Shown: positions 548 to 32,979 of the stretch, piece after piece
Layout of the letters: each line of letters starts with the position of its first letter
Position numbering within the stretch: the first letter of the stretch is position 1
NCBI GenBank assembly: GCA_021772935.1
Contig: JAJFLA010000011.1
Span: 1 to 49,251, forward strand
Direction: 5' to 3'
From: Gammaproteobacteria bacterium
Lineage (GTDB): Bacteria > Pseudomonadota > Gammaproteobacteria > Xanthomonadales > SZUA-36
DNA length: 49,251 bases
Program-made: the position numbers and the translations under genes
The notes under the pieces: generated by a model
What the model was told of the DNA's origin: nothing
The model's database searches: none
The model's input: only the letters and a program-made list of their open reading frames with translations

Positions 548-1933
548 ATGGCAGGCAATAGATACAAAAACAAACAGGCCAACTGTTTCAGCTTTACTGG
601 CTGTCACTATGATGCTGCAAGCGGTGTTGCGACGCTTTCGTATGATGTTGATGGTCGCGCACTGCAAGAAACAATAACTTTTCCATGGGCTCCATGGCCG
701 GTAGATGCGTCGCGGCAGGCGGCATTTTTCCAGGCACTGGAATTGCTACACCTGATTGCTGGCATCAGTTATTACAAAGCGGGTCTGGCGCAGCGTATTG
801 ATCCGGGGGATAGCAGAATCGACGAAACCCTGGCCGGTTTTCTGAATGAGTTATATGTGCAAGGCCTGGGAGAATTTGCCTATATCAATCAGCTGGACTT
901 GTCTGGCAAAATAAACTTTGAAGTCAATATTGACCGAGCACCAGGAGCAAAGGGCTTGGACCAGGCCACCCTGCCAACCGGTTCCCGGCCTCACTCTCTC
1001 GACCTGCCCGAACGTGCATTGGTGGCCATGGGTGGTGGCAAGGACAGTCTGGTTTGCCTGCAGATACTTCGAGACGCAGGTGTCGAGGTTCAACCAGTTT
1101 GTGTTGGTGGTTCAGCTTTGATTGGTGATACCGTTAAAGTGGCAGGTTTGCCTCTGATATGTATTCAACGTGAATTATCAACCGAACTCGCCGTGATGAA
1201 TGCAAGTGGTGCCTGGAATGGCCATGTACCTGTAACAGCAATAAACTCCGCCATTTTGTTGTGTGCAGGTTTGTTGTTCGGTCACCGCTATATCGTATTT
1301 GCAAATGAGTCTTCAGCTAATGAGGCAACGCTAAAAAATGATGATGGCATAGAAATAAACCATCAGTACAGTAAAAGCCTTGCTTTCGAACAAGCCTTTC
1401 GTACAGTCATTGCTCAACACGTCTCAAGCGGTATCGAATATTTTTCTCTACTACGGCCTTTTAGTGAAATTGCTATCACTCGTCAGTTTGCGGAAATGTC
1501 AGAGTTTCACACTGTATTTTCGAGCTGTAATCGCAACTTTCACCAGGATGGTTCGCATATTGAGGGTCGCTGGTGTCAGGCTTGTCCCAAGTGTCGGTTT
1601 GCAGCTCTGGCGCTGGCAGTATTTTTGTCTCCGCCGCAATTGATTGCAATTCAGGGTGCAGACTTGCTGGACCAGGAACAACAATTGCAAGGCTTTAAGG
1701 CCTTGTGCGGACTTGGAGAGCACAAGCCATTTGAATGTGTGGGCAGTATTGCCGAAAGTCGGGCAGCGATAAAGTTTTTGGCGATTAGCCCCCACTGGCG
1801 GCATAAATATGTCATCAGTGTGCTGGCTCAGCACCCGGAGATCAGACAAAGTGGTGAGCTTGAGTTACAAGCTGATTCGAAAGCACAGCATTGTATTCCA
1901 ACTAAAGTAATGGCCAAGTTAAATGCATTTTAG
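548..1933 (+). CDS. murL: UDP-MurNAc-L-Ala-L-Glu epimerase MurL
   Basis: 461 residues. MurL is known from Xanthomonas: it uses ATP to epimerise the terminal L-Glu of UDP-MurNAc-L-Ala-L-Glu to D-Glu, replacing the MurI/D-Glu-specific MurD route in cytoplasmic peptidoglycan synthesis. The sequence shows a PP-loop-like nucleotide-binding motif GGGKDS at residues 162-167 after a hydrophobic strand (ALVAM), a Cys-rich RWCQACPKCRF segment near residue 345, and the family's usual length of about 450. The decisive context is the next gene, which overlaps it by 11 bases and is a divergent MurD with MurD2 features; murL-murD2 is the known pair. The family assignment is from memory of the Xanthomonas pair, without a search. 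A generic PP-loop ATPase is the alternative. Confidence 0.82.
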   Translation: MAGNRYKNKQANCFSFTGCHYDAASGVATLSYDVDGRALQETITFPWAPWPVDASRQAAFFQALELLHLIAGISYYKAGLAQRIDPGDSRIDETLAGFLNELYVQGLGEFAYINQLDLSGKINFEVNIDRAPGAKGLDQATLPTGSRPHSLDLPERALVAMGGGKDSLVCLQILRDAGVEVQPVCVGGSALIGDTVKVAGLPLICIQRELSTELAVMNASGAWNGHVPVTAINSAILLCAGLLFGHRYIVFANESSANEATLKNDDGIEINHQYSKSLAFEQAFRTVIAQHVSSGIEYFSLLRPFSEIAITRQFAEMSEFHTVFSSCNRNFHQDGSHIEGRWCQACPKCRFAALALAVFLSPPQLIAIQGADLLDQEQQLQGFKALCGLGEHKPFECVGSIAESRAAIKFLAISPHWRHKYVISVLAQHPEIRQSGELELQADSKAQHCIPTKVMAKLNAF

Positions 1934-6446: not shown

Positions 6447-6911
6447 ATGGCAAGAGGCGTAAATAAAGTAATTCTGGTGGGGAATCTGGGTAAAGACCCG
6501 GATATGAAATACACCGCTAGCGGTGCTGCAATCGCAAATATAACGGTGGCCACTTCTGAGAGTTGGAGTGACAAACAAACCGGCGAAAAACAGGAGAAAA
6601 CCGAATGGCACCGGGTGGTATTTTTCAGGCGCTTGGCAGAAATCGTCGGTGAATATCTACGTAAAGGATCACAGGTTTATATCGAAGGTAAACTTCAAAC
6701 CCGTAAGTGGCAGGATCAAAACGGGCAAGATCGGTACACAACTGAAATCGTAGCCAACGAAATGCAGATGTTGGGTGGTCGTAGTGAAGGTGCTGGTAAT
6801 CGTCCGCAGCAGGGTAGCGGTGGTGGCTTTCGTAATAACCCATCAACTCAGCAAGCGGAAACCAAGCCTCAATCCGATAACAATTTTGCTGACGACGATA
6901 TCCCATTCTGA
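6447..6911 (+). CDS. ssb: Single-stranded DNA-binding protein
   Basis: 154 residues. It coats single-stranded DNA in replication, repair and recombination. The OB-fold occupies about 1-110 ([18 protein letters not shown] start; EWHRVVFF strand; [11 protein letters not shown]). A Gly/Gln/Ser-rich linker follows, and the acidic tip DDDIPF is the docking site for partner proteins. Length and termini are typical of gammaproteobacterial SSB. It sits between the MFS gene and the rhamnose operon. Confidence 0.97.
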
Positions 6912-17265: not shown

Positions 17266-20202
17266 TCAGGCGGATTTTTTATTCATGGAATTGTATCGAT
17301 CAAAAAGTTTCGTCAGAAAATGACCGGTATGTGATCCGGGTGTTAAAGCCAACTGCTCAGGTGTGCCGGTTGCAATGATTTCACCGCCACGATCACCACC
17401 TTCCGGGCCAAGGTCTATGACCCAGTCAGCTGTTTTGATGACATCCAGATTATGTTCAATGACCACCACGGTATTGCCATGATCGCGCAAGCGATGCAAT
17501 ACCTGTAGCAACTGCCTGATGTCGTGAAAGTGTAATCCGGTGGTGGGTTCATCCAGTATATACAGTGTCTGTCCGGTATCGCGTTTGGACAGCTCCTTGG
17601 CCAATTTGATTCGCTGTGCCTCACCACCGGACAGAGTGGTGGCACTTTGGCCGAGCGTTATATAGGAAAGGCCGACATCCATTAGTGTTTGTAGCTTGCG
17701 TGCCACCACCGGTACAGGTGCAAAAAATTCCAGCGCGACTTCAACAGTCATACCCAATACTTCGTGAATGTTCTTGCCTTTGTAGTGAACCCCAAGAGAT
17801 TCACGGTTATAACGTTTGCCATGACACACATCGCACGATACATAGATATCCGGCAAAAAATGCATCTCGACGCGGATCAAGCCGTCGCCCTGACAAGCTT
17901 CGCAGCGACCACCCTTGACATTGAAACTGAAGCGCCCGGGTTTGTAGCCGCGGGAACGTGCTTCATGGGTACCCGCAAACAATTCGCGTATCGGTGTGAA
18001 TAAGCCAGTATAAGTGGCAGGGTTGGAACGGGGTGTACGACCAATCGGTGATTGGTCTATATCTACGACTTTATCGAACAGGTGTAGATTGCTTACGCCC
18101 TCATAGGGTGCTGGTTGAGTACTGGCATCGTACAATTCCTTGGCTGCCAAGCGGTGCAGGGTGTCATTAATGAGGGTTGACTTACCCGAGCCAGAAACCC
18201 CAGTCACACACGTAAACAGGCTGGCAGGGATTTCGAGAGTAACCTTTTTAAGATTATTGCCAGAGGCACCTATCAGTTTGAAGACCCGTTGCGGATCGAT
18301 TGCTGTGCGCTTTGTTGGAATTTCGATTTCCATTCTGCCGGAAAGATATTTACCGGTCAGCGTAGCATCACTGTTGACCAGATCTTCCGGTTTGCCATTA
18401 AAAACAACCTCACCACCATGTATACCCGCACCTGGACCCATGTCAACGACGTGGTCTGCCATGCGGATGGCTTCTTCATCGTGTTCCACGACAATGACCG
18501 TGTTGCCGATGTCACGTAACCGTATCAAGGTAGAGAGCAGACGCTCATTGTCGCGCTGGTGAAGACCGATTGATGGCTCATCGAGTATATACATCACACC
18601 AACCAGACCGGCACCGATTTGACTTGCGAGGCGGATACGCTGTGCTTCACCTCCGGACAAGGTACCGGCTTTGCGGTCAAGCGTCAGGTAATCCAGGCCG
18701 ACATTGACCAAAAATTGCAATCGTTGATGCACTTCTTTAACAATTTTTGCGGCAATCTCCCCTTTATTGCCACCTAAACTCAGCTCACTGAAAAAATTCA
18801 GACAGCGCAAAATTGGCCATGCGGTAACCGTTGGCAAGTTGGTGTCTGCTACGAACACGTGTCTGGCTTGTAGGTTCAAGCGCTGGCCATGGCATTCGGT
18901 GCACGGTTTCATGGATATGTATTTAGATAATTCTTCCCGCACAATGCGCGCATCGGTCTCGCGGAAACGTCGCTCTAGATTTGGAATCACACCGGCAAAC
19001 GGGTGTTGTCGCTTCTGTGTGCCACGCTCACCGAAATAGGTAAACTCTATGATCTCGTCTCCACTGCCGTACAGGATGATGTCACGGTGTTTTTTGCTTA
19101 ACTGTTCGAATGGGACTTCAATGTCGAAATTGTAATGTGCCGACAAGGCTTTAATAATCTGAAAATAATAAGCGTTGCGTCGATCCCAGCCCCGTACAGC
19201 ACCACCAGCCAGGCTCACATGAGGGTTACTGACAACACGTTCCGGATCAAAAAATTGGGCCACGCCAAGGCCATCGCAACTTGGGCAGGCACCATTTGGG
19301 TTGTTGAAAGAGAACATGCGTGGCTCGACTTCTTGCAAGCTATAATCACATTGAAGACAAGAATAACGTGAGCTTAGTAATGTCTCTTTGGTTGCAACGG
19401 ATTCTTGGCCCAGGGCACCTTCTCGACCGCTTTCAGGTGACTTACGCCTGTCTTTCGACAGGTTCCCGGTGTCACCGTCTCTCAGTTCCTCCATTGGTGA
19501 TAATAAAGCGAGGCCATCGGATAATAACAAAGCGGTTTCAAATGATTCGGCCAAGCGTTGTTTCAGGTCGGGCCGAACTTTGAACCGGTCAATGACAACT
19601 TCAATAGTATGATTCCGGCGCAGCTCAAGAGTAGGTACTTCATCAACTGGGTATATGTTACCGTCGACACGAACACGGACATAACCCTGTGCCCGTAATT
19701 CATCAAATAGCAACGCATGTTCACCCTTCCGGTCACGCACGACCGGCGCCATCAGCATCATTTTTGTGCCTTCAGGAAGCGCCATGACCTGATCAACCAT
19801 CTGACTGATGGTCTGGGCTTCAAGCGGCTGCCTGTGATCAGGACAGCAAGGTGTACCTACGCGAGCGAACAGTAGTCGTAAGTAGTCATAAATTTCAGTA
19901 ATCGTACCAACCGTAGACCGTGGGTTATGCGATGTGGACTTCTGCTCGATTGAAATGGCAGGCGAAAGACCTTCGATATGATCGACATCCGGTTTTTCCA
20001 TCACTGATAGAAACTGGCGTGCATAGGCCGAAAGTGATTCTACGTAACGGCGCTGGCCTTCCGCGTAAATGGTGTCAAAAGCCAGTGATGACTTACCGGA
20101 ACCTGAAAGGCCAGTAACCACAATCAATTTGTCCCGTGGAAGGTCAAGGTCAATATTGGCCAGATTGTGAGTGCGGGCACCGCGTATTTTGATGGTTTTC
20201 AT
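17266..20202 (-). CDS. uvrA: Excinuclease ABC subunit A, with a repeat-encoded insertion
   Basis: 978 residues from [15 protein letters not shown]. coli UvrA is 940. It is the damage-sensing ATPase of nucleotide excision repair. Walker A is GLSGSGKSS at 31-39, with zinc finger pairs CLQCDYS..CPSC and [29 protein letters not shown] and VMYILDEPS belong to the first ABC module, and [10 protein letters not shown] and ALSGG-type [13 protein letters not shown] to the second. About 29 residues are extra between LALLSPMEE and LLSSRYSC (roughly residues 240-268), just before zinc finger 1, and most are encoded by a copy of the intergenic hairpin repeat (19404-19484). The frame stays open and all motifs persist, so the protein is probably functional. 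A TTG start at 20226 is possible but less family-like. Confidence 0.95.
19404..19484 (-). repeat. Hairpin repeat copy inserted in frame in uvrA
   Basis: Read on the uvrA strand, this 81-base stretch aligns without gaps to the two-unit intergenic copy at 229-309, with 63 of 81 bases identical by my count. The same 29-base unit, ACC joint and terminal AAG are kept. The end GGTCGAGAAGGTGCCCTGGG matches the single-unit copy at 20395-20419 with one difference in 25 bases. 81 is 27 codons, so the frame is preserved. It encodes a charged, probably disordered segment with Arg, Lys, Asp and Gly. Stem pairing is partly lost: 4 of 6 and 3 of 5 pairs remain. Confidence 0.85.
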
Positions 20203-20282
20203 TAAAACTGCCGAAACGATTTGCAACCACCTACTATACCCCCCTTTCGAAATAATAGTAGCGTGTTATGCACAGGATGTGC

Positions 20283-20447
20283 GGTACTTCGCGATAGAGC
20301 ACAGGGATGTGCGACGCGAAGCGTCTCAGTCTCGCACGGCAAATAATGACGGTACTTCGCGATAGAGCACAGGGACAAGGTGAGACCGGGTACCGGTCGA
20401 GAAGGTGGCCTGGGCCAAGTGCGACGCGAAGCGTCTCAGTCTCGCAC
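20283..20447. repeat. Composite repeat array upstream of uvrA
   Basis: GGTACTTCGCGATAGAGCAC begins at 20283 and again at 20351, a 68-base period. The first is followed by a 29-base palindromic core (20309-20337) with GTGCGA/TCGCAC ends and an inner GACGC-GAA-GCGTC stem. The second is followed by a one-unit hairpin repeat (20379-20419; GACCGG-GTA-CCGGTC) and then another copy of the 29-base core (20419-20447). The order of modules mirrors 1-330, with different stem bases. It lies between uvrA (-) and rplU (+), upstream of both. Confidence 0.85.
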
Positions 20448-20496
20448 AGCATTGATGATCTCGCACGGCATTCAAAGTCTCACACAGCATAAATTA
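20440..20496. repeat. Three 19-bp direct repeats
   Basis: TCTCGCACAGCATTGATGA, TCTCGCACGGCATTCAAAG and TCTCACACAGCATAAATTA follow one another at 20440, 20459 and 20478 with exact 19-base spacing. They extend the right arm of the preceding palindromic core, as if that arm had been copied by slippage. Confidence 0.75.
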
Positions 20497-20546
20497 TGAA
20501 CGGTATGGTTCTACCCCGATCTCACGGACATTCAGGTGGGAGAAGG

Positions 20547-20624
20547 TGAGAGAAGGCGAGACCGTGAAACGGTCGATAGGCTGGCTTGGGCCACCGTGAA
20601 ACGGTCGAGAGGCTGGCCTGGGCC
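20547..20624. repeat. Hairpin repeat, second two-unit copy
   Basis: Same structure as 229-309: 29-base units at 20564-20592 and 20596-20624 with an ACC joint. The stems are GACCGT-GAA-ACGGTC (20560-20574) and ACCGT-GAA-ACGGT (20593-20605). The distal GGCTGGCCTGGGCC is identical to the copy near position 260, whereas both arms of the stem have changed together. Confidence 0.85.
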
Positions 20625-20754
20625 GGTTTCACTTTCTCGATGTTAACGGAGGTCACAGAGACAGTTACCCGTATTGGCGCTGAGGTGGGGCGGTTTTCAA
20701 ATATGGCCATATTCAAAACGATTAAAATACATTAGGTTTTTCCGTTAATGGAGG

Positions 20755-32903: not shown

Positions 32904-32979
32904 GCCGACATAGCTCAGTTGGTAGAGCGGCGCATTCGTAATGCGTAGGTCAGAGGTTCGAATCCTCTTGTCGGCACCA
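32904..32979 (+). tRNA. tRNA-Thr (anticodon CGT)
   Basis: A 76-base cloverleaf. The acceptor GCCGACA pairs with TGTCGGC, the D-arm is AGCTCAGTTGGTAGAGC, and the anticodon stem GCGCA/TGCGT has loop TTCGTAA (CGT reads ACG). The T-arm is AGAGGTTCGAATCCTCT and CCA is encoded. It could be an integration site for the A+T-rich region that follows, but I see no duplicated 3-prime end downstream. Confidence 0.97.

Follow-up and report, generated by a model that had tools for sequence, protein, structure and literature searches.

The GTAG and CGTC REPs, short palindromic and mostly intergenic repeats, are also found inside ORFs of several bacteria, repair genes included, where some of them encode residues (Di Nocera et al., 2013; PMC3733652). 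According to the legend of its Figure 7, REPs interrupt the uvrA gene of Thioalkalivibrio and the two uvrA genes of O. terrae, and the accessible parts of its text place DnaE2 genes among the REP targets and some REPs within palindromes. Thioalkalivibrio is a gammaproteobacterium. The kind of event described below, gammaproteobacterial uvrA included, is therefore already known, and a preliminary description of the present locus, which was aware of nothing described for UvrA in gammaproteobacteria, was mistaken on this point. RPEs, palindromic elements of 100-150 bp in Rickettsia and Wolbachia, are dispersed and lie in frame in unrelated genes, and the passages available report their residues in solvent-exposed areas (PMC3767692, PMC10969869). 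The QMITEs of Coxiella, a dispersed family in a gammaproteobacterium, measure 150-400 bp, carry terminal inverted and direct repeats, and overlap ORFs, sometimes in-frame in hypothetical proteins (PMC5896051, accessible parts). A literature word search, outside which most subscription papers lie, retrieved no paper on the repeat that we describe here. As far as these searches go, the repeat family, its two-hairpin unit of 14 codons and its target are new.

The window, the whole stretch of 49,251 nucleotides that was analysed, is contig C3 (49 kb) of a draft genome of 3.96 Mb in 56 contigs (G000). Its reverse strand carries a uvrA gene of 978 aa (17266-20202; NF001503, 1534.5 bits, cut-off 1147), intact apart from an insert in frame at codons 238-265. 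This insert (19407-19490, reverse strand) was recognized from similarity, from the covariance model R1 and from UvrA lengths as an 84-nt element in a 42+10+32 form; the A at its junction can be assigned to either end. An ungapped match of 63/81 between 19404-19484 and an intergenic repeat at 229-309 had been reported beforehand, and the reverse complement of the former gives exactly this count. The best ungapped window score of an unrelated stretch is 40/81 (at 6557), and the other high scores, 58 (20547), 41 (20371) and 41 (955), are repeat copies. A 25-base part said to differ by a single base from 20395-20419 was recovered by blastn as 96% identity over 26 nt at 20394-20419. Within G000 the 81-base stretch matches C45:2179-2257 (E 2.0e-12), C22:25172-25250 (3.8e-12) and C3:229-309 (3.8e-12) by blastn, and R1, built without the uvrA copy, detects that copy at E 1.3e-10. 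Both scores are far above chance genome-wide, and the proposal of a dispersed repeat in frame inside uvrA is borne out. Its extent had to be revised: intergenic sites and UvrA lengths give 84 nt and 28 codons in place of 81 nt and 27 codons, the earlier span missing 6 nt of the 5' end of the element and including about 3 nt of flank. Aligned with the 84-nt intergenic form at C45, the insert is identical at 64/85 positions; it starts at gene nt 712, just after ATGG.

Comparison of UvrA among relatives, which the preliminary description had proposed, shows the segment in none of those that could be judged. Of 40 relatives, 29 were fetched and aligned, one of which (L038) was unusable, the wrong frame having been taken; in two further genus members, G001 and G002, UvrA is split over contigs and could not be judged for the insert. 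All 28 usable relatives, 7 of them from the same genus, are free of it, and no case was seen of relatives that lack the repeat and share the segment; genus members that do carry the repeat also lack the segment. From a common anchor UvrA has 971 residues here and 943 in G003 and G007. An insertion of about 29 residues had been estimated relative to E. coli; the insertion stands, and with these genus relatives as reference its size is 28. At the insert site GGATG is found in the UvrA genes of four of the seven genus relatives, while three differ. Loop length varies within the genus, with up to about 10 extra residues in G004, G005, G006 and G009 that are not matched by the model, and the rest of the gene has 87-91% residue identity to the genus relatives. 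The insert follows the UvrA interaction domain (130-235) and precedes the first zinc-binding cysteines; against solved chains it maps between residues 254 and 259 of 2r6f, and it probably forms an exposed linker.

The uvrA copy folds no better than its shuffles (z -0.99, against -2.98 for the copy at 229-309), which identifies it as a decayed hairpin copy. Outside the insert, differences from G004 amount to 10.7, 4.8 and 53.8% at codon positions 1, 2 and 3, whereas the differences between insert and repeat are spread evenly over the three positions (7, 8 and 6). Strong purifying selection acts on the gene outside the insert; within the insert there is no sign of any. Given this codon-position bias in the gene but not in the insert, the inserted peptide looks tolerated rather than functional, as judged from the sequence. 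Assuming that the repeat evolves at the silent rate, the insertion would be younger than the split from G004.

Size and target of the repeat were read from intergenic sites. Empty sites of contexts A and C hold 2 nt (AT or AG), while filled sites hold 44 nt at five loci of context A and three of context C, and the longer filled sites of these contexts hold 54 nt (one locus), 86 nt (four) or 96 nt (one), so that the net insertion is 42, 52, 84 or 94 nt. Context B yielded no empty site. The 42-nt unit corresponds to 14 codons, and modules of 10 and 32 nt build the 52-, 84- and 94-nt forms. The insertion junction at these sites is GG(A)|TG, as displayed by the empty site of context A (CACAGGGATGTGCGACGCGA, 20300-20319, forward strand), and no target duplication longer than 1 bp was found between empty and filled sites. 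Judged by eye, both A and C have their target within the loop of a short inverted repeat (GCACA..TGTGC and GTTCA..TGAAC, respectively). Over the whole set of units the target is less sharply defined; among 90 units, tandem units included, GG stands directly upstream of 50 and TG downstream of 31. A second repeat family (GTGCGGCGCGATTG..TTGCACGG.., TATATCGCGATAGAGCAC), partly tandem, is present at 1-330 and 20250-20500 of the window, and the 42-nt unit occupies the loop between the GCACA and TGTGC arms of the inverted repeat in this family.

Each unit has two hairpins, a 6-bp stem with a 3-nt loop followed by a 5-bp stem with a 2-nt loop. Covariation supports this structure. Among 93 distinct aligned rows, both sides change in 10 of 11 pairs (106 cells, against 22.5 when shuffled) and the covariation score is 0.384, against at most 0.077 when slid; this alignment (A2) had been adjusted to the structure of the model itself, with the fifth pair of the second stem added by the analyst, and its result is thereby favoured. 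In the first alignment, with 14 independently aligned rows, the covariation score lies above all 500 shuffles, and changes on both sides occur at two pairs only, a number equalled by 107 of the 500 shuffles.

R1 (43 nt, 14 rows; E-values rough) includes among its rows the copy in Pgi, whose own R1 score is therefore not independent, and one hand-made composite of two neighbouring units (C39hyb). Its search of G000 gave 53 matches at E <=1e-4, the uvrA copy among them. At the same threshold it gave none in the genus member G009 and one in G007, which indicates that the model does not respond to coding sequence at random. Several of the G000 copies are close to contig ends. Three intergenic copies lie on the forward strand of the window: the 94-nt form (42+10+10+32) at 213-307, delimited by empty/filled-site comparison and by sequence, which had served as the reference of the preliminary description; a 42-nt form at 20375-20417 (R1 E 8.7e-26), which counts as a filled site; and a two-unit copy at 20541-20625, with R1 matches at 20551-20593 and 20594-20625 and a preceding 10-nt module read from the sequence. 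The gene downstream of the last is presumably rplU. A single unit on the reverse strand (957-999; 38.9 bits, E 6.5e-13) lies in frame and antisense within a murL-type gene (UDP-MurNAc-L-Ala-L-Glu epimerase; 548-1933, forward strand), which has no Pfam match and scores 501.6 bits with NF041275, below the cut-off of 700. Rfam has no match at the repeats; the only Rfam match of the window at the gathering threshold is a tRNA gene at 32904-32976.

Open frames were examined at 47 of 67 R1 matches in G000, the other 20 being mostly 32-nt second units and matches of fewer than 20 positions. Pgi is longer by 14 residues, which are absent in all nine genus relatives, and G004 and G005 read GGATG at this place. 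PepA also has 14 additional residues, absent in eight of nine genus relatives, and G004 has 13 residues of other sequence there. Four of seven genus relatives are 14 residues shorter in the murL-type gene of the window, and the other three have loops of other lengths. An antisense copy in a DUF1249 gene (E 2.6e-5) adds 14 residues that are absent in four of five relatives; in G001 the loop is of other sequence and longer (L205), 28 residues beyond the shortest relatives. A glycosyltransferase carries an in-frame copy in a loop of variable length. R1 did not match the other-sequence inserts in PepA of G004 (L160) and DUF1249 of G001, which may represent either loop hot spots or fully decayed copies.

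In G003, G001 and G008, 64 of 117 model matches were examined. DnaE2 of G008 is longer by 14 residues, as is that of G005 at the same site, and 13 other aligned genomes lack the insert. Both copies score with the model (29.6 bits in G005); they lie at L460 1788-1837 (G005) and L362 1009-1051 (G008). The common site runs contrary to the prediction of random insertion, and may reflect inheritance, transfer or a hot spot. In G003, a Y1-type transposase has 14 additional residues at GGA|TG, absent in all nine homologues of other genomes whose sequence spans this position; the insert is also present in a further copy of the gene in G003, which contains one in-frame stop. A DUF222/HNH gene is longer by 15 residues, absent in all six aligned. 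A perfect, unmutated unit is found in hsdM of the MAG SJ336, the only copy flanked on either side by 200 or more open codons among 84 near-consensus units in the 80 stretches listed. That the same peptide should occur in other proteins had been suggested beforehand, and it is found in Pgi (PQSGREGGLGH), in UvrA and in HsdM (PGTGREAGLGH). Seven coding copies other than that in uvrA differ from the consensus unit at 0 to 10 of 43 positions each, and their pooled differences, which include variation internal to the family, are 12, 18 and 16 over the codon positions. Long stop-free frames through repeats that were judged by eye to be shadow frames or to precede the start were not counted (e.g., G005 C75, G003 C28:170655, C55 and C70), and an NTP-transferase-like loop at C52:181259 (E 0.0143), C54:47969 and C36:22025 were too weak to claim. 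At L122 1581-1623 (G000 C31:74280-74322) a 194-residue frame that resembles a VOC-type protein ends within a unit, which supplies its final residues and its stop.

The unit can be read without a stop in five of its six frames; the exception, on the sense strand, has TGA. Since 42 and 84 are also multiples of three, an inserted copy lengthens the reading frame by 14 or 28 codons and keeps the gene readable. The coding copies use both open sense frames, in UvrA one per half, as well as antisense frames.

The repeat is REP-like in the wide sense, being composed of stem-loops with very short loops in a range of about 20-40 bp, with a unit of 42 nt, and being dispersed and mostly intergenic. It resembles the GTAG and CGTC REPs in these features, in the residues that some copies encode, in having uvrA and DnaE2 among its targets, and in entering palindromes, as reported for some REP families in the accessible parts of PMC3733652. 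In contrast to these REPs, it has two unlike hairpins per unit, a 42-nt insertion, modules of 10 and 32 nt, and the target GG(A)|TG. Its consensus (93 full-length rows, 78 distinct) has GTGA ahead of the first stem, rather than GTAG or one of the variants listed in PMC3733652, and CGTC is at neither end of the consensus unit. GTAG REPs are associated with RAYTs (REPtrons); no adjacent RAYT was found for the present repeat, in genomes that are partly incomplete and with a profile (PF01797) that misses a longer Y1-type gene. Like RPEs, with which it was compared by published description, the repeat is palindromic and lies in frame in several unrelated genes whose orthologues elsewhere lack it; it is, however, only 42 or 84 bp and occurs in uncultured Gammaproteobacteria. 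It shares with QMITEs the dispersal in a gammaproteobacterium and the overlap with ORFs, but neither terminal inverted nor direct repeats are present in its unit. MITEs are likewise a poor match, the duplication being at most 1 bp and no terminal inverted repeat being visible by eye in aligned units.

R1 matches number 1 to 72 in each of nine of ten genus genomes. The exact unit pattern occurs in at least 105 stretches. The 80 stretches listed belong to 28 MAG series, of which 27 carry the label Gammaproteobacteria or that of a group within it; among the matches listed are six comparison genomes (G001, G003, G005, G006 and G008 of the genus, G011 of the family). One perfect-scoring unit (L303) comes from a MAG with the label Halobacteria archaeon, whose contig may have been mis-binned. 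The exact pattern was not found in viral contigs, and blastn gave no match to the repeat in plasmids and phages.

Several transposases were considered as mobilisers. PF01797 Y1 transposases are present in 9 of 15 genomes, but their copy number does not follow that of the repeat; they are absent in G001 (88% complete, 24 R1 matches) and G008 (77% complete, 19 matches). Around 18 PF01797 genes no model match was better than E 0.012, in genomes partly incomplete and with a profile that misses a longer Y1-type gene. This longer transposase of G003 is itself a target and has no flanking repeats, and around 30 of its loci strong matches were found only inside the gene. IS91-type (Y2) transposases give 16 matches in G007, which has one repeat match, and none in G001, which has 24; Y2 elements are therefore read as targets or carriers. 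Units lie inside or beside Y2 remnants in G000 (C39, C46), G003 (C23, C25, C47, C64) and L289. Those in IS91-type genes or remnants include L386, L390 and L406 (G003) and L289 (MAG CSMAG_2845), L289 and L390 being classed as Y2 by eye. In L406 and L289, from different genomes, the unit is at the same position (before MTWA), and the transposon may thus transfer the repeat from one genome to another. None of these searches identified a mobilising enzyme; neither Y1 nor Y2 showed adjacency or a copy-number link, in genomes partly incomplete.

We are confident that the uvrA insert is a dispersed, non-autonomous, REP-like repeat that was inserted in frame. The loop is of variable length in the genus (G004, G005, G006 and G009) and the copy is well diverged at 64/85, as would be expected if a G+C-rich UvrA loop merely happened to resemble the repeat. 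Such a coincidence is scarcely conceivable and is refuted by three observations: the length of the insert equals that of the 84-nt intergenic form exactly, the scores are E ~4e-12 by blastn and 1.3e-10 by R1, and events of 14 residues caused by the same repeat recur in Pgi, PepA, DnaE2 and a transposase. An assembly artefact, or acquisition of the gene with its insert, might be suspected in a 56-contig draft with several copies near contig ends. Similarity of the uvrA copy to its nearest long copies reaches only 75-80%, which excludes a misjoin of identical repeats, and the insert is in frame, within a 49-kb contig and in a gene 87-91% residue-identical to its genus relatives; we consider this explanation very remote.

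It has been speculated that REPs in repair genes have a selected effect (PMC3733652, accessible parts). In the present case, the inserts in UvrA and DnaE2 would alter repair or mutation rates and would have been selected. Both gene classes figure in that paper, and the repeat that enters them here lacks GTAG and CGTC ends; the DnaE2 insert is shared by G005 and G008. The inserts are, however, without codon-position bias, and unrelated genes carry them as well, which makes domestication improbable. For the repeat as an in-frame insertion that is merely tolerated, the following course may be proposed. Insertions would fall widely over the genome; those that break a protein would be lost, and those in permissive loops would persist as near-neutral passengers. 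The hairpins, the target and the lack of duplication might suggest an HUH-type transposase, which could conceivably move the repeat in trans. It is also possible, although we regard it as rather unlikely, that the repeat represents an undescribed two-hairpin mobile family of uncultured Gammaproteobacteria whose 42- and 84-bp lengths are kept at multiples of three since copies that pass through genes survive, and which repeatedly enters DNA-repair genes as frame-neutral 14-codon inserts at GG(A)|TG.

The matching empty sites show that insertion of a bacterial hairpin repeat into conserved genes can leave their proteins readable. The analysis ties this tolerance to a 42-nt unit, and supplies a likely target site. 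With the genes and their relatives, a set is available outside Rickettsia for measuring how old such insertions are, what becomes of them and what effect they have. From the 14-residue motif (KVRPGTGREAGLGH, together with its other frames) annotators can label these segments as repeat-derived and not as part of a domain.
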